Source: Fibrobacter sp. UWB10
Lineage (GTDB): Bacteria > Fibrobacterota > Fibrobacteria > Fibrobacterales > Fibrobacteraceae
Assembly (NCBI RefSeq): GCF_900182935.1
Contig: NZ_FXUE01000003.1
Location: 310,001-374,000 of the forward strand
DNA: 64,000 bases
Direction of reading: 5' to 3'
Made by a program: the position numbers and the translations under genes. Below, piece after piece: positions 32,220 to 61,782 of this stretch. Position 1 is the first letter of the stretch. Every line of letters begins with the position of its first letter. The notes beneath the pieces are model-generated. The model had not been told where the DNA came from, ran no database searches, and saw only the letters and a list, made by a program, of their open reading frames with translations.

Positions 32220-32630
32220 ATGGATGCGGCTAAACTGGACCAATTGAAGGATGTCCTGAATCGGGTATGGGCCGAGGACACCTGTTATCCTGGTTCGTGG
32301 AATAAGAATATCCCATGCAAGGGACAATGTGAGCCGACGGCATGTGTCGTGCAGGATTTGTTTGGCGGTGATATTTACAAGATTGTCGGCGACGAGTCAA
32401 TCGGTGCTAAGGGCGCGCATTTTTTCAATGTTATTGATGGCAAAATTGTTGACCTGACTGCCGCTCAGTTTGATGGTCCTGTTGCCTATGGAAAGGGCAA
32501 TAAGGTGGAAGGACTTGCTCTTCGACAGCTGAGAACTCATAGCCGATTTAATCGAAAGCAACGCTATGAAAACCTGAAAAGAAAGATTGCTGCTATAATG
32601 GAATATCCTTTAAATGCTGAGGGGAAATAA
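32220..32630 (+). CDS. YunG-like protein
   Basis: 136 residues starting MDAAKLDQLK at 32220, with AGGAG ten bases upstream; a longer frame from 32139 has no ribosome site. The core TCYPGSWNKN-IPCKGQCEPTACVVQDLFGGDI followed by GAHFFNVIDGKIVDLTAAQF matches the YunG type (invariant G-Q-C then T-A-x-V-V-Q-D, and an H-F-N/D-G-K-x-x-D-L-T block). The Cys, His and Asp could form a papain-like triad. Function is unknown. It sits 10 bp upstream of the NACHT gene in the same direction. Confidence 0.55.
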   Translation: MDAAKLDQLKDVLNRVWAEDTCYPGSWNKNIPCKGQCEPTACVVQDLFGGDIYKIVGDESIGAKGAHFFNVIDGKIVDLTAAQFDGPVAYGKGNKVEGLALRQLRTHSRFNRKQRYENLKRKIAAIMEYPLNAEGK

Positions 32631-32640
32631 AAGGCTGTTT

Positions 32641-42100: not shown

Positions 42101-45100
42101 TCGTATATACAAACGCTTCGAGAAACGTTTACTCTTTCTTCTGCAACGAATACTTTTGACTGGGGAAACTATCAAAGTAAATTTAACGACATTATGAGTG
42201 GCTTGAACGGCGTTATTAATGAAAACCCTCGAGCTTCATCTTCTGCGAGTGCTTCTTTTTCAACAAGTGGTGGCGGCGGGTTTGCTTTCCCGATTCTTAC
42301 CAACCCATTGACTGAAATTGTTGGTCTTTTCCTGGGTAGGGAATCTACCTTGGTGACATACGACATGTCACCGCTAAAGTTCGACTTTGACTGGAAAAAT
42401 AGTTACCCGATTGTGGGACCGCTATGTGCCGACATTGGTTTTAATTTCGGGGCCTGCATTGACTTGGAGTTTGGGTATGATACACACGGATTGCGTCGTT
42501 GGAGAGAGAGTGACTACAAGAATTATGCGGCTTTAATTGACGGCTTTTATATTGCTGACTGGAATGATGACGGCAAGGATCTTGCTGAGGTCGTATTCCA
42601 TTCGGGTATTACGGCTGGAGCCAGTATCGCGGGCCGGGCTGGTGTCAATGTAGGCTTGAATCTGGATGTGAATCTTGATTTTAAGGACCCGAATAATGAC
42701 GGGAAAATTCGCCTTGGTGAAATGGCGGATATGCTCAAGACGAACCCGATAATGATATTCGATGCTTCTGCTGATATAGAAGTGGAAGCCTATGCATATT
42801 TGGATTATTTCTTCGGTCGCAAAAAATGGACCTTGTGGAGCAGCGATGCGTTTGAATTATTCGATACCGCTTCTAAAAAATCTAATACGCCAACACTTGT
42901 TTCAGACAATGGAGATTACCTTGTTGTAAATGTTGGTGATTTTGCGGCAGGTAGGAATTCTGGTAATCTGAGCGATGGCGATGATGTCGTAACGATTGAA
43001 TTTACGGGCGCGAAAAAGTTTAAAGTTTCTTGGGGAAATTATTCATCCGAAGAAATCAGTCTTGACAAAGACTCAAGTAATCCCAAGAAAGGCATCTGCG
43101 TTTATGCGGGAAAAGGCCGTGACACAATCACAATAAAGTCTTCGAAGGATGTAAATGTTTCTGCCGATGTTGTTGTCTATGGCGGAGACGGTGAGGATTT
43201 AATTGATGCTTCCGGATTGAGTTTGGCTGCGGATGGAAATGCCATATTGATTGGAAATGGCAGCCTTGACGTTATCAAAGGTGCTGGTGGTTTAGGAAAC
43301 AACTTCATATTTGGAGAGATCGCGCGATTTGTAAAGGACGACGATAAGGTAAAACTAGCCGAGGCCTATCCCGATGTAGCTTCTGCGGAAACCAATGTTT
43401 TGTTTGGTGGAGCGGGGAAAAACTTCATCTTCGGTGGGGCAGGTAGTGATATACTCTATGCCGGAGATTTCGCAGAAACGACGAACTATCTGTTTGGCGA
43501 TGGTGGTAGAATAGAATACAACGAAGACAATCTTCTCGAAGTTAGCCGTTATGATTTGTTTGACGAAGGCGGCGATGATTTAATATATGGTAGCGTTAAT
43601 GACGATAAACTGTATGGCGGTGCCGGAACAGACTGGATTGAAGGTCTTGAAGGTGATGACGAAATCTATGGTGGCCAAGGAAATGATATCTTAATCGGCG
43701 GAAACGGAACTGATAAAATCTATGGGTATGATGGAGCAGATGTCATATTTGGCGATACGCCTGCCGAGCCGAACATGGTGATTGCTGGTGCTGGTGATAC
43801 AGTAGGTATTCTGCCTTATGACTATCTTTCTTCGGATTACTATGATAGTAAATCATCTCACCCGTTGTTCTCCAGTGCAGGCTTGGTGCTGACAACACCT
43901 CAACAGCATTTTGTTAATCTGCCTTTTGAAAAAATTAAAAGCATTGTTTATTCAGGAGAACAAATAAACGTTAATAAACTTACGGTTCTATCAAAAATAC
44001 TTGGGTTAAATGAAGAGGAACTAAAAACTAATGACTCGTATGATACAACCAAGATAGAATCTGCAATTTTAAGTAAACTTTCCAAAGTCCAGGATAATGA
44101 GGGCCTGTCTAATTCAACGGATTACATTTACGGCGGCAATGGTTCTGACATCATCTTCGGCGATGACGGTGCAGACGGAGCATCTGCTTCGGGTGGTAAT
44201 GATGTTATCGAAGGTGGCGCCGATAACGACTTTATCGATGGCGATGCCGGTGACGACCGCATAACGGGCGGTTCCGGCGAAGATGTCATTTACGGCGGCC
44301 AGGGTAACGACATTCTCGATGGCGGTGCCGGGAATGATATCGTGTTCGGTGATGACGGAATTAATGGATTTGCGACAGACCAGAAGGGGACTTCGGATTT
44401 ATTTGCCTATCAGGAAGATAGCGAAGCGAGAAAGAATCAGGGCCTCGTATTTGGAGACACCATCAATTCTTTCGTAAATAATTTCGGAATCAAGGCAGAT
44501 GCGAAGTCGAATACAAGTGGCGGGGCCGACACGATTATTGCCGGGAATGGCAGCGACATCGTGGACGGCCAGAGCGGCGACGATTCCTACATCGTGAACA
44601 TGATGGGGGGCGGTAACCGCGCCTATACAAACGTGATGGATTCGGGTGAAAATGACGCGTCCGATTCCTTGACCATCAACGGAACCGTCAATGCCGACGA
44701 ATTCCTGATTCGCGCGTCGGACCTCGGCCTGGGTATGGTGGCATCGCTGCCGGAAATCCAGACCGACCCGAACAGCCCTGCAAGCAGGACCCAGATCGAG
44801 CGCGTGAACTTCTGGAACGTGGGGGTCGAAAAGACCGGCGTCGAAAACCTCGCCGTGAATGCCGGTGCCGGAGACGACAAGATTTCCATTGACGGGACAC
44901 TTTCTACAATCTCCATCGATGCTGGCGCCGGTAACGATATGGTAACGGTTGGCCAGATGTTCGATTCAAAACGGACGACCGACGCAAATCTCAGCAACGT
45001 GCAGCCCAAGGATGTTTTCGGGACGACGGAGACGACCCAGGGCTACCTGAGCAACGGCGTAGAACACGCAACATCCATTGTCGGTGGTGAAGGTAACGAC

Positions 45101-48100
45101 ACCTTCAACGTGTTGCACAACAAGGCGGCGGTGTCGCTTTCCGGTGGCCTTGGCAACGACACGTTCAATGTCGCCATGTTCCAGGAAAAGCATGAAGACG
45201 AAACCACGTCGATTGTCGAGAACGGCCCGGTCACGCTGATTGGCGGAGCGGGTATCGACAAGATGAGCATCGCCGGAAGCGAAGGGGACGACACCTTTGT
45301 GATTTCCCATGGGCGGATTTTCGGCGAGGGGATCGATGTGCAGACGGTGAGCATCGAGGACAAGAATGTCTACGGTGGCGACGGCGACGATTCCTTCTAT
45401 GTGCTTGATTCTGAAACGAAGGAAATAACGAAGCTCTACGGCAACAAGGGCAACGACAGCTTCTACAACGGGGGCGTGGGTTCCGCCGACATGCCCGCGT
45501 TCCTGACGGCGACCGCGGTGGATTCCGGAGCCATCAATGTCGTGTTCGTGAACGCGAACGACACGACGAAGGTGCTTGACACGCCTACGGCCGTATTGCC
45601 CGAAAACGGAAATGCGGTTGATGCCTACAGGGTGAAACTTGATAGGGCTCCCAAGGCGGGCGAGACCGTTACGGTGACGGTGTTCGCTCCCGGGGCGACC
45701 ACGGAAGCGCATGGACGCGGCGACCGCGAAATCTGGCTTGTGGACGGAAGCGGAAATCTTTGCAAGTCTCTCTCGTTCAAGTTCGCCGCCACGGCGACGG
45801 GCGACGGCGTTGTCGCTTGGAATTCCCCGCAGTTGGTAAAGGTGAAGGCCATAGGCGATGCGGTACGCGAAGGGGACGACTACTTCTCGCTGCTGCACAA
45901 TGTGTCGCTGACCGCGACACAGACGAATGTCGAAGCGTCCGTGGTGAAAACCTGCAAGAACGCACTGGTGTTCCTTGACGAACCCGGTACGCAAACGACC
46001 GTTGACAACAAGTTCTCGGTAACGCAGGAAGTCGTTGTGACTGCCTCCACTGGGAATGAAGTCGCTGTGGATAACCTTTCATTGCCTCCCGCTACGAGCG
46101 GGATAAGTGCCTGGTATATGCAGGACGGGGCACCCGTCTTCATTGATGCGGGGAGATTGTCCATCGATGAAGATGTGCTGAAAATAAATATAAATTCTCT
46201 GGGATTGACGCCCGGCACGAGGATTTATTTCAACTACCAGCATAGCGAAGTCTTGCTGGATGACGAAAGCATTGTCCAGATGGCCTACAGTACCGAGGGC
46301 ATGACCGATATGCTTGAATTTACGTCTGCGGATGATGGGACGAAAAATTCCGTATGTGCCGAGAGTCTGCTTGGAACCATAGACGCGGACAATGCAAGGT
46401 ATGTCTACAGGACTGCGGGCACCCAGATAATTATCCTTGACAAGGTCTCGCTCAAGCCGGTTTCCCTCAAGGGGAATGTATCATTCCAGCCGGTGGACGG
46501 CTCTATCGTTTACCCGCAGGTGACGATTTATGACGAGGAGAATTCCTTCCAGAATGTCTCCAAGGAAGAAATCGCGCAGCACATGCAGGACAACACGATT
46601 GAAAACATCAAGGGCGCCCTGTACGAAGACGGCATGGGCAAGGAGTTCAGCCTTGGCGATGTCGGCCCCGCGATGCTCCGTTACGGTACTTCGACGACGC
46701 CGACAACCAACGACGAGAAAAATGCGGCATCCGCCGAAGACCTTGCCGCCTGGGCCGCGGCTGCCCAGGCCGCAGCGCAATTTGACGAGAGCCAGAGCGT
46801 GGACCGTGTTTTCACCAACAACATGGGAAATGCCAAGGCGGGCGTAAAGAACGACCTTCAGGCTTTGGAATCTGTCGGGACCATCGACCAGTCCGTGATT
46901 CCGGTGGCGGGCGGTTCGCCGGTTATTCTCAATTCCCTGCCCGATGTGCAAAAACAGGCCGACACGGAATGGTTCAATTCGGACTCCGAGTCGCTCCGCT
47001 TTACCCATAAGGACCTGGCGGCAACCGACGAGAACCGTATCAACACCGGCAACATGGAATACGGGGAATACAACCTGGGTACGGGCGCGGACACGGTGGA
47101 TATCTACAAGTCCATCTACCGCGAGGACGGATTCCAGACCTTTACCGTGATGAACAGCGGCGAAGGTGGCGACACGATTAATGTCCATAGCTACCAGGAT
47201 GGCGAAGACGACCAGCTGGTGATCAACGCTGGCGAGGGCAACGACACCGTGGCTGCTACCGGTGCGAATGTGATCAAGGAAGGCCTTATCGTGTTTGGTG
47301 GCCTTGGTGATGACTCCATTGACATAGACAGCGACAGTTCCCTTGTCTTCGGCGACCGTGGCCAGGTGCTGTACCACGACGATGACGGCAACGTGGTGAC
47401 CCGCCTCGGCGACGACAGGACCGGTACACCCGGCGTTGATGAGGAAGATGAAGAATGGAATGCTGGCGGTTCCGACTATGCGACAGGCAAGAACAAGGAT
47501 TCCGAAGCCTACTGGCAGACCGACGGTGTTCGCCGCGGCCCGAGCATTGCCCGCACGGTGACTGAGAACCAGGGTGGAAACGATGTGATAACCCTTGCCG
47601 ACGGCAGGAATGTCGTTTTCGGAGGAGTGAACGCAACACGAACCGTTCCTGCGGATGCTAGCGAGCATGAGAACGAGAATGAAGTCATTTCGACTGGCAA
47701 TGGCAACGACCTTGTATTCGGCGATGACGGCTATGCCACCTTCGGAGGGCATGCCTCTATTGCCGAAGCCCTCGGGCAGGATAACGCTCCCGAAGTTCGC
47801 ACCGAGGCGACCCTCAGTTTCAACTTCCAGGGAGCTTCGCAGACTGGGCTTGATTCTGCCGCCGTGGCGGGTGCCCTGAATGCGACCCATGGCGACGACT
47901 ACCGCAGCGCCAACTGGAACAACGTGGGCGGGAACCTTGCGGGCACCTACGGCAACGACGACCGCGAGGTGGTGCGCTTTGACGACGGCACCCGCGCAAG
48001 CGCCGTGAGCGTGAGCTACGGTGGCATCGAGAGCCACCGCAATACGGACACCGACAACCGTATCAACCTGCAGGCCTACGGCCACAACTTCGCGAACGCC

Positions 48101-50668
48101 TCTACCGACGCGGATGCGGCGCTGATGAACGCGGGCCTCATGACCACGGCCCCGAACGCCCAGTGCGACAACAGGCTCGAAGTCGTGGTGGATGGCCTTG
48201 CCCAGTACTTTACGGAATACAGGGTGGTGGTCTATCTGGATATACCGGATTCCCATTCCGCGTACGAGCACAGCGTCCGCAAGGTGAGCCTGTATGTGGG
48301 CGACTCCAGTGCTGCCCTGCAGAGCTTCTATGTGGACGATGCCGAAGGCGAAAATTTTGACGGCGGCTACGAACGGGCCACAGCCACGACGGCATCCGCG
48401 GCAACCTACGCGAACTACGCCGTGTTCACGGTGTCTGCGGCCAATTTTGCCGACAACTTCCGCGTGGTTATCGAGGACGCGTTCCCCGACCAGCACCCCA
48501 ACGGCAAGAACTTGCCGGGCATTGCGGCCATACAGGTGCGCGGCGACCTGCATGCGCAGGATGTGGCCGTGTCTACGCAGCTGAACCTCGGCGGTGACGA
48601 TACCGTCTCGACGGGTGGCGGCGACGACATCGTCGTGGGCGGTGCCGGTAGCGACTACATGGCGACCTTCGGCGAACTTGCGGGCGGCATACGTGACAAC
48701 GACCTTGTGTTCGGCGATAGCGCCGAGGTGCGTTTCGAGGACCGCCTAGGCACTGGCGATACCATGGTGTCGTCTGCCCGTAGCCTTGACCCTGACGCGG
48801 ACGACCTTGTGCAGGGAGTCTCGTTCGACGACCGTATCGTGACGGGTGACGGCAACGACACCGTTGTGGGCGGTCTCGGTGGCGACAAGATTCTTGCGGG
48901 TAGCCAGTTCGAACTCACGCAGCTGGGCATCGCGCAGGCGTTCTATGGTGACGAGGCTACGGTGGAAAGCCTTGACGCCGCGAACGGCCCTGCCGCCATC
49001 CGCGACCTGGAACAGCTCAAGGATACGACGGTGGAAGGCCGCAAGGTGCTGAGCGTCAACTTCACGACCCGCGACGCGGGCGATTCTACCACGGCCTCGG
49101 GCCATGCGGGCGTGGTTCACGATACGGGCTGGAACAACCTCTACCTGTACAACGGCCACCTGTACACGCACGAGGGTAACGAGAACTCGACTACGCCCGT
49201 GCTGCGCTACAGCGACGGCGGCACGGTCACAGACAGTTCCGTCGGCATATCCCTGACATCGTACGATTCGGGAACGACTGACCAGGGCCAGAACGGGAGC
49301 CTCGTGTTCCGCACCTCTACGGAGCTTGACGGCGACACGGCCAACAGCCGCCTGTTCGCGGGCTACACGGCCGCCCAGCAACAGCAGGACATCCATGTTT
49401 CGCTCACGAACCTTTCTTCGTTCCGTGGCGCGGGCGGGACCTGCGATGTGTATGTGTACCTGGGTGCTGACGACTCCGACACGGACGCCCACAGCCACAT
49501 CTACGAAATCCAGGGTTCCGAGGATGGTAGCCGCTACCTGAACGACTGGAAGGGTCACGCCTTTGACGGCGACTATCGCGAGGCGACCTGTAGGAACCGT
49601 AGCGATGCGCTCGCGAACCTTGCCGTGGGAGCCACCCCCATGGTGGAACTCATCGGCAACTACGTCGTGTTCCACGGTGTTGCGGGCGATACCTTCGACC
49701 TGTATATCCGCAACCTGCACACGGAAGGCGGCCAGTGGCCTATGAACATGCCGGTGATTGCGGCCATCCAGGTGGTGGCGGGCTCGGGCAGGGCCGATGC
49801 CGCCGTGGGTGGCGACCATGACCGCGACCTCGTATTTGGCGACAGCGCTGCGCTCACCTTCGACATGGATGTGCCGTATGCTGCCGGGGAAGACCTCGCG
49901 GACTTCGCGAACATCAACCGGGTGAACGGGGCTTCTTCTGTGGCGCTTGACGATGGCCTCTATGCCCTCGGTGCCGATGATGCCATTTACACGGGCATGG
50001 ACCGCGACGTGGTGGTGGCGGGCGAAGGGCTCGATACGGTGACACTCGGCTCGGGCGACGATGTCGCCCTTGGCGACAACGCCTCGCTGGTGCTGGAGCA
50101 CAACAACCCCGTGGGCGTGTTCCGCCCCGATGTGGAAACTGTGCTCGAAAGCAACAACTACCAGGCCGACACTGCGGCATACCTGGGTTCGCCCACGGTG
50201 GATGCCGGGGATATCCAGGACAAGTTCGAGGATGGCGATGTGCCGGGAGTGACGCTCGAAGCGTCTGCAAACGGCGGCACGGATACATTCACCGATGCGA
50301 CCGACAAGGACTGGACCGTGCAGCAGGAAGTGACTCCGGGCACGATTTCGCGCACGATTGACATTTCTTCGGGTGCGCAGGTGATTACCTTTGCCGAGGG
50401 AGAAACGGTGCTGCTGGTAAGCGACACCTGGCCCGGCAAGGACAATCCGTGGTGGAATCCGAACATCGTGTTGATTTCTGATGGTCTGGGCCATAGCGTC
50501 CCCGCCCTTGCATGGGAGTGGGACGTGAACGGCACAACTATGACGGCCTCGACGCAGGAAGGCTACTACTTCACCGTAGATATTCCCGACACTCCCAATG
50601 GCGATAACCGCTACGAAATTCGCGTGACCGCACTCGCCGCAGGCACCGCCGTCATTTCTATCGGGTAG
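36110..50668 (+). CDS. Giant LEPR-motif, RTX-repeat surface/secreted protein (4,852 aa)
   Basis: The N-terminus has no signal peptide but a LEPRWMMDG motif (residues 19-27), close to the LEPR-xLL motif at the start of many giant bacterial exoproteins. Residues ~30-2,380 are Ser/Asn-rich, repeat-poor, adhesin-like. RTX-type calcium-binding nonapeptides (GGxGxDxI/L) cluster at ~2,390-2,560 and ~2,670-2,830 (GGQGNDILDGGAGNDIVFGDDG), and again beyond 3,650, often ending in VFGD. Two related ~220-residue jelly-roll-like domains lie near 3,900 and 4,310. Expected export is type I through a TolC channel, with calcium-driven folding outside. Base composition changes sharply near 44.5 kb. CGGAG precedes the ATG. 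Single uninterrupted frame. Confidence 0.85.
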   Translation: MAKKNPNDKNLNNYKIEALEPRWMMDGNQWGSEILSSGYDVVESASASYEKWESTKIDTVTLKDENSGEMSFASIKDFLDNENILETGMNWVKDRVGAAWNRVLADNNLDSTSVVSAADVFDELDGTLNDKDGWQFTISCGTNDFTVSATFNKYYEVPDDTFLIADLKNFAGVDLKLIPLDSEKALHVTGSFSCKFDGQESVSYTTKPNLNAEIAFKQIISNQVDLEDLEDDYGLEQNPSYYGTQGNAFNYISVADSPNDDVSDYSAKVGMNLGSVSQKVTKTHSGDLNFYTGIVNDSTTQILKGPNEENLFSNVYVKLIYDESQRVWKWNDNVIAALENFDMGLVLRKLSDLSQWLQLNSTATSENPTPLLYDSFNGILNQNASENACLPKLLSEVIEKAPSTLVGLYQCAQKFSYTFLTYDSTSKKLVIPFRLKLQMPGSTDQTQLVDAEIETVVSLATKALTDRGFVVRDNKSLDLTTKNIILSFDLVVDLGDVSSSKVSKDSKIVEFLNENAFENTFGTNCVIADNGLGFAFPDSSTYKAKDDVQGIYFTVSTTPKDAYAYSDAYITFNSDFLAAVNEDEEIELILKKNGDSDVKQSFCFHASGSIEELASAIQAELATNEKYLEHKKATVRYVGNYLIITNLAKDFYVASLEVDDEKATINESSTQPVFVEVSKKMPIAIPSAGTITLSISGVDDVVISPNFSGAKNEEDVVRVLNQCLNDLQGNDKKFVAELRDGKVAFRTTGAYCASSFTVSGSNLSEIGFVQNLTSNNSCLEIIVERDNDNKEFKANVNFDDWWLSSEGLSQRTVGNLLSKICGTSFVGDQETVSDVLSFDENTLKIAGTNSYTIKSIKNCNGFSLASLLGIAGENTADVPADFTVDVWKLDAEESILYKNFELSFEQTLTGNAEIDANLGLIRSQFKKDNVNLEHTITLSINAEPGANESFELPDYRLNATQEIINKKFDEVVSSYNNLCSLASNLSLNPITLSSLETFFQLINTIEQFQSSIYDFKQIVDNSWNNLNSIKYKSYTSAIQSLAQSYNGFVTDFENVCQCIECINVDSFKQILANPVGSNQSLNLTNLSNLLEELEGIIEDINSLDVSTILNDVKTSLLSVVQTIKSDYEQGASVIVSKTQGGTLVLEEVDSCKLGSISLRDLSSVEELVSDNVSSLSNGVLANQNVLDAWSVTSAHDVLNLLGNEFGEKFLGKPKIGETSTTFDGLVSESLLSSKIPFIDHSFIELAGLDTKLYELYNLMNKAESLTLQDFVEQLSARTGIGCVLSMIESNETYAVVLNFGWSYAIMDKKITLGNLGGPSSFIGGGIDVTLNGHLNFNLQAKVVYSNGNVSIVFDQTNPLVDASFTIAQNPLSGKINVNIDGEQSLSLLEITGGSYIDVEASCKFGFGTNTFFECKEASLKVDGLLNLSLLGADAGSIEIGSSYGNNSINLLNLGDLSSLTPQLIYLSETDEEADTIKGNSPIYVDLHKLDISLSRFNLFDNLALVGDGLSQLLRKAISGLNSEVLRDSMRNVPFIGDRIIAAADCLTRLDSDFVEPLRKFLNSTRNVDEVVIAEKLYDILSQYNLFATELDRPLANLENGATETWADKQFTHCYNGIQYYKNEDEAGWRLRLGGQYELDRNADFDLGFPGLGLRSEGGLKITLGWMLDIGFGVNKNTGAFILLSNGKEFWSGEGENKTLNRSTSGVDYEENKEGLTNHVGDDLKVWITVSTNDGFEIDGSLGFLQMTATGHNFTGASAYLGVDLNDGRNDKTVDAETDGKDDYGKDSVINIYSLASELSVEANLLASVNIDGLELELGIGDGSSAFPKLTAELNLDWSASIGGGENNGLKLLSLSNPTFDAGSFISNTFGSVVKRIQSVIGPIQPLIDFLQAEIPVLNKLPAGKIRITVLDLIKMYGSKNDMDFGFLDDIIAINRIVKLFNEGSNNNLSNDLLLKLPDLILYEDADGYDSSNGDRRKRSDANISSINFLNGFSDNLDSYIQTLRETFTLSSATNTFDWGNYQSKFNDIMSGLNGVINENPRASSSASASFSTSGGGGFAFPILTNPLTEIVGLFLGRESTLVTYDMSPLKFDFDWKNSYPIVGPLCADIGFNFGACIDLEFGYDTHGLRRWRESDYKNYAALIDGFYIADWNDDGKDLAEVVFHSGITAGASIAGRAGVNVGLNLDVNLDFKDPNNDGKIRLGEMADMLKTNPIMIFDASADIEVEAYAYLDYFFGRKKWTLWSSDAFELFDTASKKSNTPTLVSDNGDYLVVNVGDFAAGRNSGNLSDGDDVVTIEFTGAKKFKVSWGNYSSEEISLDKDSSNPKKGICVYAGKGRDTITIKSSKDVNVSADVVVYGGDGEDLIDASGLSLAADGNAILIGNGSLDVIKGAGGLGNNFIFGEIARFVKDDDKVKLAEAYPDVASAETNVLFGGAGKNFIFGGAGSDILYAGDFAETTNYLFGDGGRIEYNEDNLLEVSRYDLFDEGGDDLIYGSVNDDKLYGGAGTDWIEGLEGDDEIYGGQGNDILIGGNGTDKIYGYDGADVIFGDTPAEPNMVIAGAGDTVGILPYDYLSSDYYDSKSSHPLFSSAGLVLTTPQQHFVNLPFEKIKSIVYSGEQINVNKLTVLSKILGLNEEELKTNDSYDTTKIESAILSKLSKVQDNEGLSNSTDYIYGGNGSDIIFGDDGADGASASGGNDVIEGGADNDFIDGDAGDDRITGGSGEDVIYGGQGNDILDGGAGNDIVFGDDGINGFATDQKGTSDLFAYQEDSEARKNQGLVFGDTINSFVNNFGIKADAKSNTSGGADTIIAGNGSDIVDGQSGDDSYIVNMMGGGNRAYTNVMDSGENDASDSLTINGTVNADEFLIRASDLGLGMVASLPEIQTDPNSPASRTQIERVNFWNVGVEKTGVENLAVNAGAGDDKISIDGTLSTISIDAGAGNDMVTVGQMFDSKRTTDANLSNVQPKDVFGTTETTQGYLSNGVEHATSIVGGEGNDTFNVLHNKAAVSLSGGLGNDTFNVAMFQEKHEDETTSIVENGPVTLIGGAGIDKMSIAGSEGDDTFVISHGRIFGEGIDVQTVSIEDKNVYGGDGDDSFYVLDSETKEITKLYGNKGNDSFYNGGVGSADMPAFLTATAVDSGAINVVFVNANDTTKVLDTPTAVLPENGNAVDAYRVKLDRAPKAGETVTVTVFAPGATTEAHGRGDREIWLVDGSGNLCKSLSFKFAATATGDGVVAWNSPQLVKVKAIGDAVREGDDYFSLLHNVSLTATQTNVEASVVKTCKNALVFLDEPGTQTTVDNKFSVTQEVVVTASTGNEVAVDNLSLPPATSGISAWYMQDGAPVFIDAGRLSIDEDVLKININSLGLTPGTRIYFNYQHSEVLLDDESIVQMAYSTEGMTDMLEFTSADDGTKNSVCAESLLGTIDADNARYVYRTAGTQIIILDKVSLKPVSLKGNVSFQPVDGSIVYPQVTIYDEENSFQNVSKEEIAQHMQDNTIENIKGALYEDGMGKEFSLGDVGPAMLRYGTSTTPTTNDEKNAASAEDLAAWAAAAQAAAQFDESQSVDRVFTNNMGNAKAGVKNDLQALESVGTIDQSVIPVAGGSPVILNSLPDVQKQADTEWFNSDSESLRFTHKDLAATDENRINTGNMEYGEYNLGTGADTVDIYKSIYREDGFQTFTVMNSGEGGDTINVHSYQDGEDDQLVINAGEGNDTVAATGANVIKEGLIVFGGLGDDSIDIDSDSSLVFGDRGQVLYHDDDGNVVTRLGDDRTGTPGVDEEDEEWNAGGSDYATGKNKDSEAYWQTDGVRRGPSIARTVTENQGGNDVITLADGRNVVFGGVNATRTVPADASEHENENEVISTGNGNDLVFGDDGYATFGGHASIAEALGQDNAPEVRTEATLSFNFQGASQTGLDSAAVAGALNATHGDDYRSANWNNVGGNLAGTYGNDDREVVRFDDGTRASAVSVSYGGIESHRNTDTDNRINLQAYGHNFANASTDADAALMNAGLMTTAPNAQCDNRLEVVVDGLAQYFTEYRVVVYLDIPDSHSAYEHSVRKVSLYVGDSSAALQSFYVDDAEGENFDGGYERATATTASAATYANYAVFTVSAANFADNFRVVIEDAFPDQHPNGKNLPGIAAIQVRGDLHAQDVAVSTQLNLGGDDTVSTGGGDDIVVGGAGSDYMATFGELAGGIRDNDLVFGDSAEVRFEDRLGTGDTMVSSARSLDPDADDLVQGVSFDDRIVTGDGNDTVVGGLGGDKILAGSQFELTQLGIAQAFYGDEATVESLDAANGPAAIRDLEQLKDTTVEGRKVLSVNFTTRDAGDSTTASGHAGVVHDTGWNNLYLYNGHLYTHEGNENSTTPVLRYSDGGTVTDSSVGISLTSYDSGTTDQGQNGSLVFRTSTELDGDTANSRLFAGYTAAQQQQDIHVSLTNLSSFRGAGGTCDVYVYLGADDSDTDAHSHIYEIQGSEDGSRYLNDWKGHAFDGDYREATCRNRSDALANLAVGATPMVELIGNYVVFHGVAGDTFDLYIRNLHTEGGQWPMNMPVIAAIQVVAGSGRADAAVGGDHDRDLVFGDSAALTFDMDVPYAAGEDLADFANINRVNGASSVALDDGLYALGADDAIYTGMDRDVVVAGEGLDTVTLGSGDDVALGDNASLVLEHNNPVGVFRPDVETVLESNNYQADTAAYLGSPTVDAGDIQDKFEDGDVPGVTLEASANGGTDTFTDATDKDWTVQQEVTPGTISRTIDISSGAQVITFAEGETVLLVSDTWPGKDNPWWNPNIVLISDGLGHSVPALAWEWDVNGTTMTASTQEGYYFTVDIPDTPNGDNRYEIRVTALAAGTAVISIG

Positions 50669-50691
50669 TTTTTACTAATTTTGGAGCGCAA

Positions 50692-51936
50692 ATGCATATG
50701 AAGAAATTGGTAATAAAAGACATCGGTCCGATACAAAGTGTTTCTTTGGACTTGAAAAAGATAAACGTCGTAATTGGTCCACAGAGTGCAGGAAAAAGCT
50801 GCATTTTGAAAATAGCCTGTTTCTGTGCCTGGGCAGAAAAACGCATCTTGCTGGAACAGGGGAAAAATGGCTTTGCAAACTTTAGCTATGTCATTGATAA
50901 TCTAATCGTATTCCATAAACTGGATGGTTATATCCGTTATGGAAGTCTTATTGAATATAAATCCGATTATGTTCATTTTATTTGCGATTTCAGTAAATCG
51001 ACATTTGACTTGACTATATTTGAAGGTTGTTGGCGATACAAGCGAAGTAAGATTTCTTATATACCCTCGGAAAGAAATCTTGTTGCGGCTATTCCCAACT
51101 GGTTTGAGGTAAAGTTCGATAATACGAATATCCGAAACTTTATCGCAGACTGGAATGGTGTCAGGGGCATGTATAGTCCTGGCAATATGCTTGATATTTT
51201 AGATTTGAATGTCAAATACTACTATGATGCGGAAGCATCTAGGGATTATGTCTTGCTTGGTGATGGGAACAAGGTTAACTTGACGAATGCATCTAGTGGA
51301 TTGCAGTCCGTTATCCCAATGTGGGCTTACCTGAAGTTCCTTTTTGATGAACAGTATTCTGCCAAGTTGCCTTCCAATATCGTAAGTGATAGTGAAAACG
51401 AATCGGTGCTTTTCCATATATACGAAAAACGCTACAAAAAATCCCTGGAAGTGCTTGCAAGTGAAGACGATCGATATTTTGGAAAAGTCGGTCGCTTGAC
51501 ATTGCCCTTTAAGTCTCAAAAAGACTATAAGGAATGTTTGAAACTATACGAGAACTTTACTCGAACTGCGTATTCGGATATATACCTGGAAGAACCCGAG
51601 CAGAATCTATTCCCGCTTACGCAGGTTGAACTTGTGCAAAGTCTTCTGAAAAATGCTTCGATGCATTCTGACGGATTGTTTATTGCGACGCACAGTCCCT
51701 ACCTTTTATATGCGATTAACAATTATATGCTTGGATATATTGTTCGCGACAGATTGCAGGATGATGACCGAAAGGATTGTTTTGTAGATCCCCAAAATGT
51801 AGCTGCATGGGAATTACGTGATGGGACTGTAACCCCGCTACAAGATGAAGATGGACTCATTCGAGGCAATTACTTTGACCGCGTAATGAAGCGTGTGATG
51901 AACGAATTTTCCAACTATGCCGCATACTATGGCTAA
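50692..51936 (+). CDS. AAA/ABC-type ATPase (OLD-like), first gene of a two-gene module
   Basis: 414 residues. Walker A GPQSAGKSC (about 27-35); an SSGLQSVIPMWAYL signature-like helix; Walker B YSDIYLEEPEQNLFP with catalytic Glu; and an IATHSPYLLYA switch histidine. This is the order of the AAA_15/AAA_21 type found in defence ATPases such as PtuA, AriA and OLD. No TOPRIM domain follows. GGAG lies upstream. The next gene overlaps it by 20 bases. AT-rich between two GC-rich blocks. Confidence 0.8.
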   Translation: MHMKKLVIKDIGPIQSVSLDLKKINVVIGPQSAGKSCILKIACFCAWAEKRILLEQGKNGFANFSYVIDNLIVFHKLDGYIRYGSLIEYKSDYVHFICDFSKSTFDLTIFEGCWRYKRSKISYIPSERNLVAAIPNWFEVKFDNTNIRNFIADWNGVRGMYSPGNMLDILDLNVKYYYDAEASRDYVLLGDGNKVNLTNASSGLQSVIPMWAYLKFLFDEQYSAKLPSNIVSDSENESVLFHIYEKRYKKSLEVLASEDDRYFGKVGRLTLPFKSQKDYKECLKLYENFTRTAYSDIYLEEPEQNLFPLTQVELVQSLLKNASMHSDGLFIATHSPYLLYAINNYMLGYIVRDRLQDDDRKDCFVDPQNVAAWELRDGTVTPLQDEDGLIRGNYFDRVMKRVMNEFSNYAAYYG

Positions 51937-52519
51937 CATTGTTGATAAATTTGAACACGCCCACGAATATCAAAATGACGTGTGGGTCGCCGATTATACG
52001 GAACGGACGCGTTTCGAACCGGAGAGCGCAAAAAAGGGTGTCTGCGTCTCGGAATCCGAGTTTGACGATATAAAGTCATTCCATTTGCAGAATCCCAAAC
52101 ATGTTGTAATCTATGGTGTTAATTTTGAAGAGCATCCACATTTCTTTCCTAAAAAAAAGAAGAATTGCGAATGCCTTTTCAAACCGAGAGATGTTGTCGA
52201 TGGTGGATTTTTACTTCTTTGTGAATTGAAGTATTGTAGAGCCCATAACATTGAGGAAAATGTCGATAAGGCTTACGAACAGCTTAAGTCAACCTGGTCG
52301 CTTTTGGAAAGCCGGCAAATCTTCGATAGAAACCACTGCAAGAGTTTTCTCAATATATCTGTTCCAGACCATAGCGATAAATCGCCTTTCAGGTCCTTCA
52401 CGGCAAGCCAGGATGAAGAACTGAAGTGGCTGAAGAAATATAAGATAAATTTGCTTGGCGAGAAAGACCTTTTGATTCTTGATAAGGGCGTTGTCAGAAT
52501 CCCGGAAACGGAAATATAG
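51917..52519 (+). CDS. Unknown protein with nuclease-like ELK motif, partner of the ATPase
   Basis: 200 residues (or 196 from the ATG at 51929; neither start has a clear ribosome site, suggesting coupling to the ATPase gene). A strand DVVDGGFLLLCELKYCRAHNIEENVDKAYEQLKSTWSLL resembles the D...ExK of PD-(D/E)xK nucleases followed by a Q/K helix. Four cysteines are present, two in the NCECLF and KYCRA segments. No family recognised. It ends seven bases before the convergent tolC-like gene. Confidence 0.5.
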   Translation: MPHTMANIVDKFEHAHEYQNDVWVADYTERTRFEPESAKKGVCVSESEFDDIKSFHLQNPKHVVIYGVNFEEHPHFFPKKKKNCECLFKPRDVVDGGFLLLCELKYCRAHNIEENVDKAYEQLKSTWSLLESRQIFDRNHCKSFLNISVPDHSDKSPFRSFTASQDEELKWLKKYKINLLGEKDLLILDKGVVRIPETEI

Positions 52520-52526: not shown

Positions 52527-54023
52527 CTATTCTGCGGTTAGGTCTTCGCGCAGCACGAGTCTATCGTTTTTCCAGGTTTCCAGGCCGTTCTGCAGTAGCA
52601 GTTTGCCCGTGGCCCGCATCAGCCGGACATCGATGATTCGGAGTGTTCGCATGTTTTCGAGCTGTCGGCGCTCCGCTTCGCGCAGGTCCTCTTCCACCTC
52701 GAAAATTTCGCGGTAGTTGCTCTTGCCCATGGCGAGTTTCTTGAATTCCTCTTCGAGTTCCTTCTGGTGGTATTCCACCGCAATCTGCCCGTAGCGCCAC
52801 TGTTCGCGGATTTCTTGCGCCCTATTCTGCAGAATCCTGTATTCCTCGAAGATTTGCGCCTGCAACAGCATGAGCCTTGTACGGGCGGCCCTCACGCTGT
52901 ATTTCTGTGCCGATATGCGGTGCCGCTCGGCAACGCCGCCGAACAGCGGTATGTTTACCTCGATACCGCCAGCAAGCACGGTCTGGCGCTTGCCCTCGGT
53001 CTTGAAGTTCCTCACGGCCTCGCGGGCCTTGTCGTTCCTGCTCCTTATGCCGTAATTGCCCACGAGGTCCACGGTGGGGAGCCAGTCGGCCCGCCTTGCC
53101 GAAAGTTCCGATTCGCGGAGCATGACCTCGGCCCCTTGCGAGAGGTAGCCCGGATGCATGAGCGACATGGAATCCAGGAATGTGAGCGAATCTAGCCTTG
53201 CCGCCGAATCGGGGGCGAGGTCCGGGCGCATGGCGATGGGGCGGGGGTCGTGGATGTATTCGCCGGACGACAGCGTGAGCAACAGCGTGAGCCTTGCGCC
53301 GCGCAGCTTGTCGAGTGCGTCGAGCCTTGCCGACTCGCGGTCGGAATACTCCGCCACGGCCTTGCTATAGTCAAGGGGCGAAAGCAGACCCTGCTTGAGC
53401 CGCTTGCCCGCATCTTCCACGATGTCCTTTGCCACGCGGGCCGACTCGGTGGCCGAGGCCAGGAACCGGTCGGCGTAGTAGTAGTTCCAGTAGGCGTCGC
53501 AGAACTTTTCGAGGACATCGTTCAGGGCGTCGCGGTATTTCTGGTAGGCGAGTTCCCTGCGGAGCCTTGCCTGTTCCAGCTCGTTCGTGGCCGAGAAGAA
53601 CAGCGGGCCGTCCTTCAGCAGGTGCTGGCGCAGCTCCCCGCCAAAATAGAGTTCCGAGGTGTAGTCGCTGTGCGTATAGGTGGCCTGGTTGAACCCCACG
53701 TTATATTCGGTGCCGGTGGGGAGCGCCCCCTGCACGCCTATCTTGTATTCTTCCTTTGTTTCCGTAAACAGTGCGCCGGGCCGCTCGGCGGTCTCCTTGA
53801 ACGCGCGGCCCACGAGCCTTGGCTCGAACTTGCCGTAGGCCCCCGTGGCCGCCTCGGATTCCGAGAGCCATGCGAACTTCGCTTCCGTCACGTCGGCGTT
53901 GTTCGTGAGCACGGCCTGCAGGGCAGTCCCGAAATCCAGGTACAGCGAGTCGCCCTTTTCTTCGGCGGCAAGGGCGGCAACTACTGCCAGGGTGGCGATG
54001 ATGTTTACGGCGCGGAAACTCAT
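52527..54023 (-). CDS. TolC-family outer-membrane channel protein
   Basis: 498 residues with a signal peptide (AVNIIATLAVVAALAAEE). The duplicated TolC organisation is visible: long helices (NELEQARLRRELAYQKYRDALNDVLEKF; ARVAKDIVEDAGKRLKQGLLSPLDYSKAVAEYSDRE) and the second-half equivalents (ESELSARRADWLPTVDLVGNYG; VRAARTRLMLLQAQIFEEYRILQNRA). It forms the outer-membrane exit duct. Its start overlaps the adaptor stop by four bases (ATGA). It is GC-rich like the adaptor. Confidence 0.85.
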   Translation of the reverse strand: MSFRAVNIIATLAVVAALAAEEKGDSLYLDFGTALQAVLTNNADVTEAKFAWLSESEAATGAYGKFEPRLVGRAFKETAERPGALFTETKEEYKIGVQGALPTGTEYNVGFNQATYTHSDYTSELYFGGELRQHLLKDGPLFFSATNELEQARLRRELAYQKYRDALNDVLEKFCDAYWNYYYADRFLASATESARVAKDIVEDAGKRLKQGLLSPLDYSKAVAEYSDRESARLDALDKLRGARLTLLLTLSSGEYIHDPRPIAMRPDLAPDSAARLDSLTFLDSMSLMHPGYLSQGAEVMLRESELSARRADWLPTVDLVGNYGIRSRNDKAREAVRNFKTEGKRQTVLAGGIEVNIPLFGGVAERHRISAQKYSVRAARTRLMLLQAQIFEEYRILQNRAQEIREQWRYGQIAVEYHQKELEEEFKKLAMGKSNYREIFEVEEDLREAERRQLENMRTLRIIDVRLMRATGKLLLQNGLETWKNDRLVLREDLTAE

Positions 54024-56817: not shown

Positions 56818-59800
56818 ATGAGTGAATCATTTGATTTTAGAGTTATGGATGACTCTGCTTCCGATAATGATTTATTAAAAGATGGAACTCACCAGAGAAT
56901 TGCCGACAGACTTTTTGAATTGATAACGAAGTCGGCAACCAAGGGGTTGACCATTGGTCTTGAAGGAAGCTGGGGTTCTGGTAAATCGACTGTTGTAAAT
57001 CTATTAAGAAAGAAACTGGAAGAAACGAAAGAGACTTTCGTTTTCTACATGGATTCGTGGGCGCATGAGGGCGATTTCTTGCGCAGAGCATTTCTTGAAA
57101 GTTTTGCCCAGCAACTGCAGAATTGTTGTGAAAAAGATGATTCTATACAAGAGCTAAAAGATAAAATAAGCAATAGAGTTATAACAAAGACAATAGAAAC
57201 AAAGCCTGTAATGGGATGTATTGGAAAGCTATGCGCTTTTTTGCTTGTCTTTGTTGTGCCTATAGGATTTTTATTTATAGATAATAGTTGTGATAATCTA
57301 ACGATAGACCTTGATGCTTCGTTAAATATACTTTTTGTATTAGGTGTTTTATTAGTTCTTCTTCCAGCATTAATTGCATTAGTCGCTTATTTAGGTCAAT
57401 TGCTTGTTCAGTTGTGGAAGAAAAGAAAAACAAAGGAAAAAGTTAATAAAGATTTTACGCTTGTTTTTTGGTCGACCGATACTACTGAATCTATGACAAA
57501 TGAAACAACAAGGGAACCGGAAAAGACCTCTATAGAATTTGAGAATTTTTTTGAACAACTCCTTGGAAAAACTTATGAAAAAGGGTTTAAAAATGTTGTT
57601 TGTGTTATAGATAATTTGGATAGAATAAATCCTGAAGATGCTCTGAAAATTTGGTCAACTCTTCAGATATTTGTAGAATCGAATAACTTAAAAAGAAGTA
57701 AGTCTTGCAAGAGTGATGTTTGGGTTGTTGTTCCTTATGACGAGTCTGGATTAAGATTGTTGTGGGATAAAAAAGATAGGTCGCAAACTGAATGCGAGAA
57801 AGAAGGATTACCTAACGGAAGTGGTGATTCAAAGGAAACAGATAAAAAGAAAAACGTTCTTTGTTCTAAATCATTTTTTGATAAAAGTTTCCAGTTAAGA
57901 ATTGAAGTCCCGAAAATGCTTTTTGAAGGATGGGAAAACTATGCTGACAAAATTATACATGATTCTTTAGAAAATAGTTTCAGTGAAGATCAAATGTCGT
58001 GTGTGCTGGAAATGCTTAAGCGAGGTCGAGTAAGCATTAGCGATGCGCCTAGTCCCCGCGAAATAAAAACATATGTGAACCAAGTTGGTTTTCTATACCC
58101 CTTGCATAAGGGAAATGCCTCTTTAGAATCCTTGTGCTTTTATATTGATTTGAAGTATTTGAAATCCAAGTCGGCAGATGAAATCAAAAAAGGTTTGTTG
58201 GATCGGAGTATTTTGTCTGAAAACAAGGTGCTTGGTTTTGTAAAAGAAAAAACGGATATCGAAAAAGAGTTGTGTGCAATTCTCTTTAATGTGAATGGTG
58301 AAAAAGGAATGGAACTTCTTATAGAAGATCCTGTTCTAAATGCATTGAATGAGAGAAATGAAGAAAAGCTACAAAAGTTAGTCCGCAATCATGAACATGC
58401 TGTGAAGATTTTTGTTGAAAATATTTTGGCAGAGAATAAATATGATTGCAAAAATTATATGCATTTGTTAATGAAAACATTTGAGGGAAAACTAGAAGCT
58501 GATTTGTTGCGGTTTGTTGTTCGTAATTGCGACCAAATATGCAACCAAATGGATAAAATTGCCTCAGTTGATGATTTATGTGCCATTTTCCAGATTGTGA
58601 AAGAAAACTCGGAAAACGATTCGCTGTATCAGTTGTCAAAAAAATATGTTGCAATGCAACATGAACTTCTCAAAGGAGATGAAGATAAATCAACTGTAGA
58701 AAAAGTTGTTGATTCTATTGAACAGGTTTATGACATTGTTGACGACCATGATTTAATTTATATTGATTACAGACAATTAGGAATGAAACATTTCCAACAG
58801 GTCGCGGATGCCGTTGGGATAGAAAGATCGTCAAAATTCGGAAAATTTGTAAGAAGTACAGATTCTTTGGATGAGGATTATTCCCAAAAAATTGTACCGA
58901 ACTCCCCAGAATTAGCGCTGTTGCCTAAATTTCCTATTATTCTTGCGTGCAGTTCTGGCTGCTTGCAATGGAATAAAACTTTGCAGGCGATAAATAAATT
59001 GATTGTTTTTAGGCCTCAGAATAATGTTTTGAATACGGATGCTTTTGTACAGTGTGTTGAGGTTTTATCAGCATTGCAAGGTTATGAATTGAAGGAAGAA
59101 TGTGACGCTATAAAATCTTTACTGAATAGACCCGACTTCTGGTACTATGTGTCGGTGTCTCAAAAAGAACGTGTGAAATTGAGAGCTGCATACCTATTGG
59201 CTAAATATACCGACGATTTGATTTCGCCCCAAGTTCAATTTACGGGACAGTCGCTAAATGGGTATAATTCTACTAAGGCTGTCTTTAAAGAGAAGAATGA
59301 TGAAATTGTAAGATATTTTTGCAAAAAAATAAATGCGACGAAAAAATCTGATTTTATTTGGTCCCTTGCGAAGAATCATACATATCAATTGATTGGTGGA
59401 ATCATTGAAAAGCAGTTGAAGGATGAGGAACATTGGTTCTTCAATACCGATAAACCTTTTGAATGTTTTGCCAACGCTATTGAATATGAATATTCAGATA
59501 ATGAAAGCGTAAGAATGCGATTGTTGGCTGAGTTTGAAAAATCTGCACATTTAGTGGCAAATGTGCAGAAAGCAGAGACTCCTATAACAACTTGTTTAAG
59601 TGCGTGCAAAATTCTTTTGGAAAGCGAATACTCTACAACTGTTGTTGAAAAGGTGAAACGTGAACTTGCCACGACGAAAAAGGATGGTTGGTCTAATGCA
59701 TTGAATGGCAATACCGAACTTCTGGATATTGTACGAAGGTGCAAAGAACTTGATGAGCAACCGCTAGAAGAATTATCAAATGATTTTGCAGATGCTTTTA

Positions 59801-60282
59801 AAGAGTATGTCAAGTCGGCAATGAGTGCTGAAAATGCTGACTGTTTAACAACGGAAGATTTGGCTGGTCTTTATGATTGTATGAGTGATTCTTTCAAGAG
59901 GTATGTATCTGGCGAAGTTGTGAATGAAATCATTGTGCGAAATTTTGTCGTGCACCCTCAAATAAGAGATTTCCTTGTCACAAAGTTAGACTATGATGTG
60001 TTAATCGGAAAACATCTAGATGCAGAAAAGATTATAAAGGATCTTGTCGAAGATGCTAAGTGGAGCCAACTTGAATTTGTTGTTGCTTTGATAGATAAAC
60101 TTGATAAACGATTTGTTCCAAAAGTTTATGATGCGAATGTTATGATAAAACTCCTGAAATCTTTAAAAGGTAAAGCAGAAGAAGGTCAATTGAAAATTGT
60201 TGAGTCGCTATGTAAGTTTTTTAATGTAGATTTTGATTCGTTAGAAAATGCCGTAGATGACAATGATGGTGAAGAATCTTAA
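56818..60282 (+). CDS. KAP-family P-loop NTPase, first gene of the four-gene cassette
   Basis: 1,154 residues. KAP layout: Walker A GSWGSGKST (50-58); two membrane segments inserted between Walker A and B (about 131-155 and 167-197); Walker B VVCVIDNLDRINPEDALKIWS (~258-278); and an arginine-rich sensor region (RVSISDAPSPREIKTYVNQ). The remaining ~700 residues are helical with no recognised domain, possibly sensor repeats. KAP NTPases are membrane-associated and recur in bacterial defence islands. AGAGGA precedes the ATG. Strongly AT-rich. The HNH gene starts 17 bp downstream. Confidence 0.78.
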   Translation: MSESFDFRVMDDSASDNDLLKDGTHQRIADRLFELITKSATKGLTIGLEGSWGSGKSTVVNLLRKKLEETKETFVFYMDSWAHEGDFLRRAFLESFAQQLQNCCEKDDSIQELKDKISNRVITKTIETKPVMGCIGKLCAFLLVFVVPIGFLFIDNSCDNLTIDLDASLNILFVLGVLLVLLPALIALVAYLGQLLVQLWKKRKTKEKVNKDFTLVFWSTDTTESMTNETTREPEKTSIEFENFFEQLLGKTYEKGFKNVVCVIDNLDRINPEDALKIWSTLQIFVESNNLKRSKSCKSDVWVVVPYDESGLRLLWDKKDRSQTECEKEGLPNGSGDSKETDKKKNVLCSKSFFDKSFQLRIEVPKMLFEGWENYADKIIHDSLENSFSEDQMSCVLEMLKRGRVSISDAPSPREIKTYVNQVGFLYPLHKGNASLESLCFYIDLKYLKSKSADEIKKGLLDRSILSENKVLGFVKEKTDIEKELCAILFNVNGEKGMELLIEDPVLNALNERNEEKLQKLVRNHEHAVKIFVENILAENKYDCKNYMHLLMKTFEGKLEADLLRFVVRNCDQICNQMDKIASVDDLCAIFQIVKENSENDSLYQLSKKYVAMQHELLKGDEDKSTVEKVVDSIEQVYDIVDDHDLIYIDYRQLGMKHFQQVADAVGIERSSKFGKFVRSTDSLDEDYSQKIVPNSPELALLPKFPIILACSSGCLQWNKTLQAINKLIVFRPQNNVLNTDAFVQCVEVLSALQGYELKEECDAIKSLLNRPDFWYYVSVSQKERVKLRAAYLLAKYTDDLISPQVQFTGQSLNGYNSTKAVFKEKNDEIVRYFCKKINATKKSDFIWSLAKNHTYQLIGGIIEKQLKDEEHWFFNTDKPFECFANAIEYEYSDNESVRMRLLAEFEKSAHLVANVQKAETPITTCLSACKILLESEYSTTVVEKVKRELATTKKDGWSNALNGNTELLDIVRRCKELDEQPLEELSNDFADAFKEYVKSAMSAENADCLTTEDLAGLYDCMSDSFKRYVSGEVVNEIIVRNFVVHPQIRDFLVTKLDYDVLIGKHLDAEKIIKDLVEDAKWSQLEFVVALIDKLDKRFVPKVYDANVMIKLLKSLKGKAEEGQLKIVESLCKFFNVDFDSLENAVDDNDGEES

Positions 60283-60299: not shown

Positions 60300-60665
60300 A
60301 TGACCGAAGAAGAAATTGATGCTGTTTGGGAAAAAGGCCGGAAAGTGCCGGACTATGACCCTTCCAAGTTTAGGAAGGATGCCTGCGGTGCGTGGATTGC
60401 GCGAGATCAGTTTGGCAAAACAGATGCCGAATTCGGGTGGGAAGTTGACCATATTTATCCCCAGGCTTTAGGCGGCGGCGATGATCCTGAAAACAAAAGA
60501 CCGCTACATTTTAAGAATAACCGAAGCAAAGGTGTTGATTACCCTTCATATAAATCTGTTGTGACTGCTCGTGGAAATAAAAATGTTGAGCAAGAACGTG
60601 TATTGCGTGTGAATAAGAATAAGATGGAACTCTTGAACTCTAAGTATGGAGCGCCCAATGCTTGA
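60300..60665 (+). CDS. HNH endonuclease
   Basis: 121 residues with a compact HNH core: GWEVDHIYPQALGGG (catalytic D50-H51), DDPENKRPLHFKNNRSKG (N65, H70, N73-N74). A short basic C-terminal part follows. No zinc-ribbon cysteines. It would nick or cut DNA or RNA. It overlaps the next gene by eight bases, so the two are translationally coupled. Confidence 0.82.
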   Translation: MTEEEIDAVWEKGRKVPDYDPSKFRKDACGAWIARDQFGKTDAEFGWEVDHIYPQALGGGDDPENKRPLHFKNNRSKGVDYPSYKSVVTARGNKNVEQERVLRVNKNKMELLNSKYGAPNA

Positions 60666-61782
60666 AAAAATGACAGTAAAAGGCTTATTGCATCAGTTCA
60701 GTTATGAATTAGACTTTACTAATGAAAACGGACCTGCTGTAAAGTATATTACGGGACCGAATGGATTTGGTAAAACGACAATTTTGAAACTGTTGGTCGC
60801 TCTGTATGGTGCCGATTGGAAGACAATGGCGGCATTGCCGTTCGATTCTTTTGAATGTGTAATGGACGGTAAAACCTTAAGCGTAACAAAAGAAGAGTGG
60901 CAGATAATACAAAATGATGATTCAGATGAACAAGATGACCTTGATGTTCGTTTAGACATTTTGTTTGAAGGCCAAAAAACATTGCAGGTTTCTGTAAAGG
61001 GGCGTGATGGTAAGTTCTACACACCGAAAAAGAGCGGGGACCACTCTGTCGAGATGATTCTCTCGCAAAAGAAAATCTTGTACATTCCAGATACACGTGT
61101 CATAGAAAAGAATCTTCCCAAAAGAAACCGAAAGTCTCCTGTGAAGACTTGTAATGATTCTTTCATTAAGTATCTGTCGATTCTTTCTGATAAAATAGGG
61201 GATTTTCTAAAGAGCAAACTCAAAAATGAATTCCCGGTGAATGAACCCATCGAAGGTTTGAAATTTCCTCTAGTTGACAAAATGCTCGGATTCGGCTTGA
61301 ATTCTGAATTCTTGACAGATGTCAAAAAATATGGTTCAATTGTTGAAAATCTCTTGAACGATGAGTATTCTATTAAGCATGAAGTTGATAAACTTGAAAA
61401 GTTTATGGAACTTATAAATCGGTATGAATTTGTCAACAAGAAAATCTCAATATCCGAGAATGATGGATTTCGGTTTAAACTGAATGATTTATTCAATTCA
61501 ATTATTGATTTGGATGATTTGTCGTCTGGCGAACGCCAATATTTGATGCTTGTTTATAAAATGCTATTTGAATCAAACGAGCATACTTTAGTTCTTGTTG
61601 ATGAACCTGAAAATTCCATGCATATGTCTTGGATTCTTGAGTTTCCCAAAGTCATCAAGGAACTTTGTAAATGGAGTGATTTGCAATTCATTATCTGCAC
61701 CCATAATTCCAACATTTTTGAACAAAGATGGGATATGTCGCAGGACTTGTTTGAAAAGAGTCAACTGAGGAAGGCAGAATGA
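60658..61782 (+). CDS. ABC-type ATPase, AriA-like
   Basis: 374 residues from the ATG at 60658, with GGAG six bases upstream (an ATG at 60646 adds four residues). Walker A GPNGFGKTT (33-41); signature LSSGERQYLMLVYKML (~288); Walker B LVLVDEPENSMH (~311); His switch ICTHNSNI (~347). This belongs to the SMC-like AAA_15/AAA_21 group. Followed by a DUF4435 gene with a four-base overlap, it matches the AriA-AriB arrangement of PARIS, although it is shorter than typical AriA. Confidence 0.78.
   Translation: MLEKMTVKGLLHQFSYELDFTNENGPAVKYITGPNGFGKTTILKLLVALYGADWKTMAALPFDSFECVMDGKTLSVTKEEWQIIQNDDSDEQDDLDVRLDILFEGQKTLQVSVKGRDGKFYTPKKSGDHSVEMILSQKKILYIPDTRVIEKNLPKRNRKSPVKTCNDSFIKYLSILSDKIGDFLKSKLKNEFPVNEPIEGLKFPLVDKMLGFGLNSEFLTDVKKYGSIVENLLNDEYSIKHEVDKLEKFMELINRYEFVNKKISISENDGFRFKLNDLFNSIIDLDDLSSGERQYLMLVYKMLFESNEHTLVLVDEPENSMHMSWILEFPKVIKELCKWSDLQFIICTHNSNIFEQRWDMSQDLFEKSQLRKAE

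Follow-up and report, generated by a model that had tools for sequence, protein, structure and literature searches.

The window analysed here, a 64,000-nucleotide stretch (positions 310,001 to 374,000) of a contig of Fibrobacter sp. UWB10, carries a two-gene module inserted between the 3′ end of a giant gene and a convergent tolC-like gene. The first gene of the module (A; positions 50692 to 51936 of the window, forward strand) encodes a 414-residue ATPase of the OLD/ABC type lacking a Toprim domain, and the second (B; 51917 to 52519, forward strand) a 200-residue predicted PD-(D/E)xK effector. Open reading frame analysis confirmed the coordinates assigned to both genes in a preliminary description of this DNA. 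The size of the overlap between them depends on the start codon chosen for B, which has two in-frame ATGs: the first gives the 20 bp of the preliminary description, while the second, at 51929, would yield a 196-residue protein and an overlap of 8 bp. The start of a B homologue at another locus (L005) corresponds to this second ATG. The module is literally wedged behind the giant gene, as had been proposed, with 23 bp between the stop codon of the latter (50668) and the start of A (50692), and 7 bp between the stop codons of B (52519) and tolC (52527). The giant gene (36110 to 50668, forward strand), whose 3′ end forms the left border of this site, encodes a 4,852-residue protein with HemolysinCabind repeats, and the right border is a TolC-like outer membrane efflux gene (52527 to 54023, reverse strand; Pfam OEP, E=4.6e-33). 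The giant protein starts near an LEPRWMMDG motif, contains RTX-type repeats and is adjoined by TolC and HlyD genes; it is probably a type I-secreted surface protein. A search for promoter-like sites between the giant gene and A retrieved none, and the 23-bp gap suggests that the module is probably cotranscribed with the giant gene. Comparison with the orthologues in genome G118 yielded dN/dS ratios of 0.09 for A and 0.12 for B, which indicates that both genes are under purifying selection and thus evolve as proteins rather than as chance reading frames.

A matches the Pfam families AAA_15 and AAA_21. Among PADLOC models, its best match is PDC-M29A (hmmscan E=1.1e-49), aligned over residues 3 to 395 to positions 1 to 389 of the 410-position profile, with weaker matches to AriA, GajA, HEC-01A and PtuA; the score against HEC-02A (4.6e-9) is far poorer than that against PDC-M29A. 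Profile searches identified an OLD-family protein, AriA and a retron PtuA as the nearest solved relatives. These similarities bear out the OLD/PtuA-like assignment of the preliminary description and support classification of A as an OLD/AriA/PtuA-like ATPase. The Walker A motif, GPQSAGKS (residues 29 to 36; 50776 to 50799, forward strand), has G29, Q31, G34, K35 and S36 invariant across nine A homologues. The Walker B region, IYLEEPEQNLFP (residues 297 to 308, including LEEPEQNLFP; 51580 to 51615, forward strand), retains invariant E300, E301, P302, E303, N305, L306 and P308, and the H-loop, THSPY (residues 333 to 337; 51688 to 51702, forward strand), is also invariant in A homologues. Together with a signature-like ASSGLQS segment, these motifs are largely invariant among distant relatives. 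Pfam detected no Toprim domain in A, and the chain ends 77 residues after the H-loop, leaving no room for a Toprim nuclease.

The preliminary description placed B in no known family. This holds for Pfam, NCBIfam and PHROGs, none of which returned a match, and for direct PADLOC searches, in which neither PDC-M29B model was significant (a sub-threshold hmmscan match at E=0.022 was the only one). Profile-profile comparison, on the other hand, aligned the B group with the PDC-M29B group (hhalign, 95.7%, E=1e-8), and a B-group member from genome G025 bridges to the PDC-M29B models at E=1e-5. Inspection of the gene downstream of each A homologue distinguished three groups of B proteins: that of the window (about 194 to 211 residues), the PADLOC type (about 166 residues) and a type of 154 to 170 residues. 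This short type matched the PADLOC type at 96.6% (E=6e-10) in profile-profile alignments and the window group at 54%, the latter across a C(D/E)…ELK…QL core. A (C/S)(D/E)-x(12-30)-E(L/I/T)K pattern recurs in every one of the 22 B proteins, across a set in which overall identity falls to about 15%. Five relatives within the B group (L005, L007, L051, L052 and L053) match no PADLOC model. As judged from these profiles, B is a divergent branch, and a distant relative, of the PADLOC candidate effector PDC-M29B; what it adds to the catalogues is a divergent subfamily, not the wholly new effector first envisaged. Two other relationships were considered and rejected: hhalign gave a probability of 0.1% for HEC-02B, with a single sequence on one side of the comparison, and searches of the B sequence against the PDB returned chance-like matches only, including weak G-alpha matches that miss the ExK strand.

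The LLLCELKYC motif that had drawn attention to B contains E103-L-K105 (52223 to 52231, forward strand), whose glutamate and lysine are invariant in 16 diverse homologues. Upstream of it, C84-E85 is invariant within the B group, and all 22 B proteins have D or E at the position of E85, the proposed first catalytic acid, which belongs to an NCE motif (E85 codon, 52169 to 52171, forward strand). An AlphaFold2 model of B built on the 16 aligned homologues reached a pLDDT of 84.9 and a pTM of 0.86; it was used instead of one obtained with nine sequences (pLDDT 45.7), which was unusable. In this model, E85 directly precedes strand 86-90 and E103-x-K105 closes strand 98-104, which is followed by helix 109-132 and strand 142-148. 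Enzymes of the PD-(D/E)xK superfamily carry an acid some 10 to 30 residues before the (D/E)xK motif, at matching strand positions; the order of elements in B is as expected, E85 and E103 are 18 residues apart, and both the alignment and the model place E85 and E103-x-K105 at matching strands. Foldseek searches of the PDB returned no match below E=0.001 (best match E=0.05, probability 0.87). The eleven best matches are all nucleases, namely Nt.BspD6I, Card1, BsmI, BstEII and EndoMS, although seven of them are entries of a single enzyme, Nt.BspD6I; FokI follows at rank 15, and we take all these proteins to be PD-(D/E)xK enzymes. The best match of the model in a library of viral structures is an uncharacterised protein (E=0.004). 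B thus likely adopts a PD-(D/E)xK fold with ExK in place, as far as the model can tell. The structure prediction and Foldseek search that the preliminary description had called for did not point away from a nuclease fold. Its view of the motif as part of a nuclease core gains a predicted fold with ExK suitably placed, while structural similarity to known nucleases is weak (E=0.05).

Intact adjacent A and B genes were found at 25 of the 29 ATPase loci checked in Fibrobacterota, Bacteroidota plasmids and viral contigs, against the alternative raised in the preliminary description that the pair might never co-occur elsewhere. The Fibrobacterota contributed 21 loci with an A homologue (E<1e-40), some of them close relatives rather than independent cases: an intact B lies next to A at 18 of them, B is damaged at two, and the last has a broken A and no B. 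One of the damaged copies, in genome G103, has an internal deletion. The other, in G100, is split by a 307-bp insertion next to an intact A. This element (L094, about 9790 to 10096) has exact 11-bp inverted ends (ATTATTCCGGA/TCCGGAATAAT) and, by its sequence, resembles a small mobile element of the non-autonomous type. Plasmid and viral pairs were retrieved by searching for the ATPase and then reading the next gene; tBLASTn of B against plasmids and scans of viral sequences with B proteins yielded nothing. All three plasmid A homologues (Muribaculaceae, Bacteroides and Persicobacter) are followed by an intact B, as are all four of the viral-contig homologues with the pair. Microcystis phage Mic1 encodes an A homologue alone (L050, 4007 to 5245), without B; it may simply be an orphan, or may act as a decoy subunit against the host system. 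Several pairs lie in defence-like or mobile surroundings and others in polysaccharide clusters: GmrSD and a DNA methylase adjoin the Persicobacter pair, one pair lies on a plasmid with a MOBV relaxase, pairs on viral contigs are near phage structural or repressor genes, and pairs in Bacteroides and Fibrobacter (L048, L011 and L012) lie inside polysaccharide biosynthesis clusters, another kind of variable locus. Inspection by eye also noted KAP-like P-loop proteins beside A–B pairs in L016 and L017. Exchange of A and B partners between lineages was not established from the trees, in which the groups compared were named after the trees had been seen: the B tree rejects the cluster observed in the A tree (p=0.0001), and the A tree does not reject the B group as a clade (p=0.165).

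The same locus was located across the genus by means of the tolC gene of the window. In strains G076, G069 and G138, both flanks are 94 to 97% identical to the window, whereas the sequence from about 50341-50416 to 52519 differs. This segment (50341 to 52519) thus behaves as an exchange slot, in which HEC-02 or Septu modules replace the pair in sister strains. The final ∼110 codons of the giant gene also differ between strains because the break of the exchange falls inside that gene. At this slot, all nine Fibrobacter genomes compared have an ATPase gene followed by one for a small protein, and in none is it empty. The pair of the window occupies it in four genomes (G000, which is that of the window, G075, G118 and G100), HEC-02A and HEC-02B in two (G076 and G098; 1e-134 and 1e-43), Septu PtuA and PtuB in G069 and G138, and a second type of PtuA and PtuB in G091. 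Families were named by hmmscan on one module per kind, with G098 and G138 carrying modules that hardly differ from the ones in G076 and G069, and the two Septu types scored E=1e-133 and 7e-141 for PtuA and 1e-56 and 6e-60 for PtuB. TolC paralogues with 60% identity are at other loci, which lack such modules. Between the window and G100, identity is 97 to 99.7% in A and about 92% in B, with 66 to 77% in the left flank and a fall to 71 to 80% on the right. The corresponding values are 91 to 99% in the module and 69 to 81% in the left flank for G118, and 86 to 99% and 67 to 69% for the HEC-02 modules of G076 and G098. Module identity that exceeds flank identity on one or both sides shows that cassettes have moved between strains; the mosaic suggests that they spread through homologous recombination within the last part of the giant gene and on the tolC side. 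A broader proposal, to which we give somewhat less than an even chance, is that Fibrobacter has a dedicated slot for ATPase–effector defence pairs, formed by the 3′ terminus of the giant gene together with the convergent tolC. This pair, HEC-02 and both kinds of Septu would then be interchangeable modules that replace one another through homologous recombination, no recombinase being involved, and that are transcribed as the final cistrons of the giant-gene message; the effector subfamily of this pair would lie outside present catalogues.

The presence of Septu at the same site links the pair, through its position, with an established defence system. Since sister strains hold other antivirus modules at this spot, the pair is very probably one as well, and its family, its slot, its recurrence and the further defence-type genes of the window all support the ATPase-nuclease antiphage design that the preliminary description had recognised. 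Most PD-(D/E)xK enzymes cut DNA. With good though not complete confidence, we propose that A and B form a two-gene antiphage module of an ABC/OLD ATPase and a small nuclease, in which A senses infection and holds B, and B cuts once infection occurs. The genes themselves, their conservation, the predicted fold and motif, the constant pairing and the replacement by Septu or HEC-02 are the basis of this proposal. A, an OLD-type ATPase without a Toprim of its own, would serve as an ATP-dependent sensor and as a scaffold in physical complex with B; an infection-linked signal perceived by A would act as the trigger that releases or activates B; and B, with catalysis by E85, E103 and K105, would then cleave nucleic acid, either DNA or tRNA, stopping phage growth directly or through arrest of the cell. 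Occupancy of the same site by Septu makes this division of labour, with A sensing and restraining and B cutting, the likeliest reading. There are precedents for such an arrangement. In PARIS, AriA forms a hexamer that retains the nuclease AriB until a viral trigger releases it, and AriB then cuts tRNA-Lys (PMC11455837). Septu requires the active sites of both its ATPase and its HNH nuclease, and cuts tRNA-Tyr (PMC13096335).

The closest known counterpart is PDC-M29. A is related to PDC-M29A over nearly its full length, B is homologous to PDC-M29B and keeps its C(D/E)…E(L/I)K…Q core, and gene order is the same. B differs in its greater length (200 versus about 165 residues), in having "CE" and an insert after ELK, and in belonging to a subgroup most of whose members match no PADLOC model. 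PDC-M29 is named in no paper of the literature searched, where no functional test of it was found either; on sequence grounds, the pair is a variant of a candidate that PADLOC lists already, apparently still untested, and does not constitute a novel type of system. Septu shares the slot (G069, G138 and G091) and likewise has a gene for a small, ∼200-residue nuclease behind that of its ATPase, but PtuB is an HNH nuclease, whereas B has ExK, matches neither PtuB models nor HNH families in Pfam or PADLOC, and is accompanied by an ATPase that is only weakly PtuA-like. HEC-02, another PADLOC candidate, at the same slot in G076 and G098, also combines an ATPase with a small partner bearing an ExK-like motif (FLEAKSS); its ATPase is of another family and its partner finds no match in B. 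PARIS has a related ATPase, as seen in the profile match of A to AriA, and a separate nuclease effector. AriB, however, is a Toprim/DUF4435 nuclease, and B has no Toprim or DUF4435 match in Pfam or PADLOC and a different predicted fold. Finally, A shares its OLD-type ATPase domain with Gabija and OLD, but GajA and OLD carry a Toprim nuclease within the ATPase chain, and Gabija pairs its ATPase with a helicase, which B is not.

Among alternative explanations, B could be a toxin and A its antitoxin, the pair serving mainly to keep the cassette, or whatever carries it, in the population, with at most a secondary part in phage defence. Two small overlapping genes, found also on plasmids and in viral contigs, would fit such a role, and PARIS itself has been described as a toxin–antitoxin system (PMC11455837). 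Nevertheless, alternating with Septu and HEC-02 at one chromosomal site, as this pair does, is how defence modules behave, and we consider this explanation unlikely; the persistence of a dead B beside an intact A in G100 says little either way. Marginally less likely still is that B has a PD-(D/E)xK fold that no longer cuts, acting as a structural or DNA-binding partner while A does the work. The weak Foldseek matches and the solitary A of the Microcystis phage are compatible with a noncutting B, but retention of the acid, the glutamate and the lysine in 22 of 22 proteins, while identity drops to about 15%, is hard to account for without catalysis. That the pair serves the giant gene, for instance as a regulator, or a source of diversity, of its product or its secretion, is very improbable: the short gap without a promoter-like site and the abutting tolC would suit it, but most homologous pairs are elsewhere, without a giant gene, and unrelated Septu and HEC-02 pairs take their place here.

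Under the sensing-and-cutting reading, a PADLOC candidate acquires a plausible mechanism, an ATPase governing a predicted PD-(D/E)xK effector, and PDC-M29 gains a branch of effectors that escapes the current models. The slot also provides a natural allelic series, with Septu, HEC-02 or this pair at one site in close relatives, which is strong positional evidence for a shared job and makes comparison of the modules simple. Should this slot prove typical, a survey of the modules that alternate at sites of its kind would be an inexpensive route to new defence genes.

Defence-type genes lie on both sides of the giant gene, with a NACHT-Mrr gene upstream and A and B, a KAP gene and an AriA-like pair downstream. 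The upstream gene (32614 to 34917, forward strand) encodes a 767-residue NACHT protein with an NCH1 C-terminal domain (E=2e-65) and a weak Mrr-type match at the N-terminus (E=7e-4), a candidate bacterial NACHT protein with a putative nuclease effector. Downstream, a 1,154-residue KAP-family NTPase with a PifA/QatA-like N-terminus (56818 to 60282, forward strand) precedes an AriA-like ATPase gene (60646 to 61782, forward strand; PADLOC AriA, E=2e-25). The latter overlaps by 4 bp a gene (61779 to 62615, forward strand) for a 278-residue protein that matches no PADLOC model and shows the Toprim/DUF4435-like motifs VEDEPDVLVYSKFF, GIRDRD and TDQRDIE. These two genes, which possibly represent a divergent PARIS system, have counterparts in G100 that are about 80% identical.
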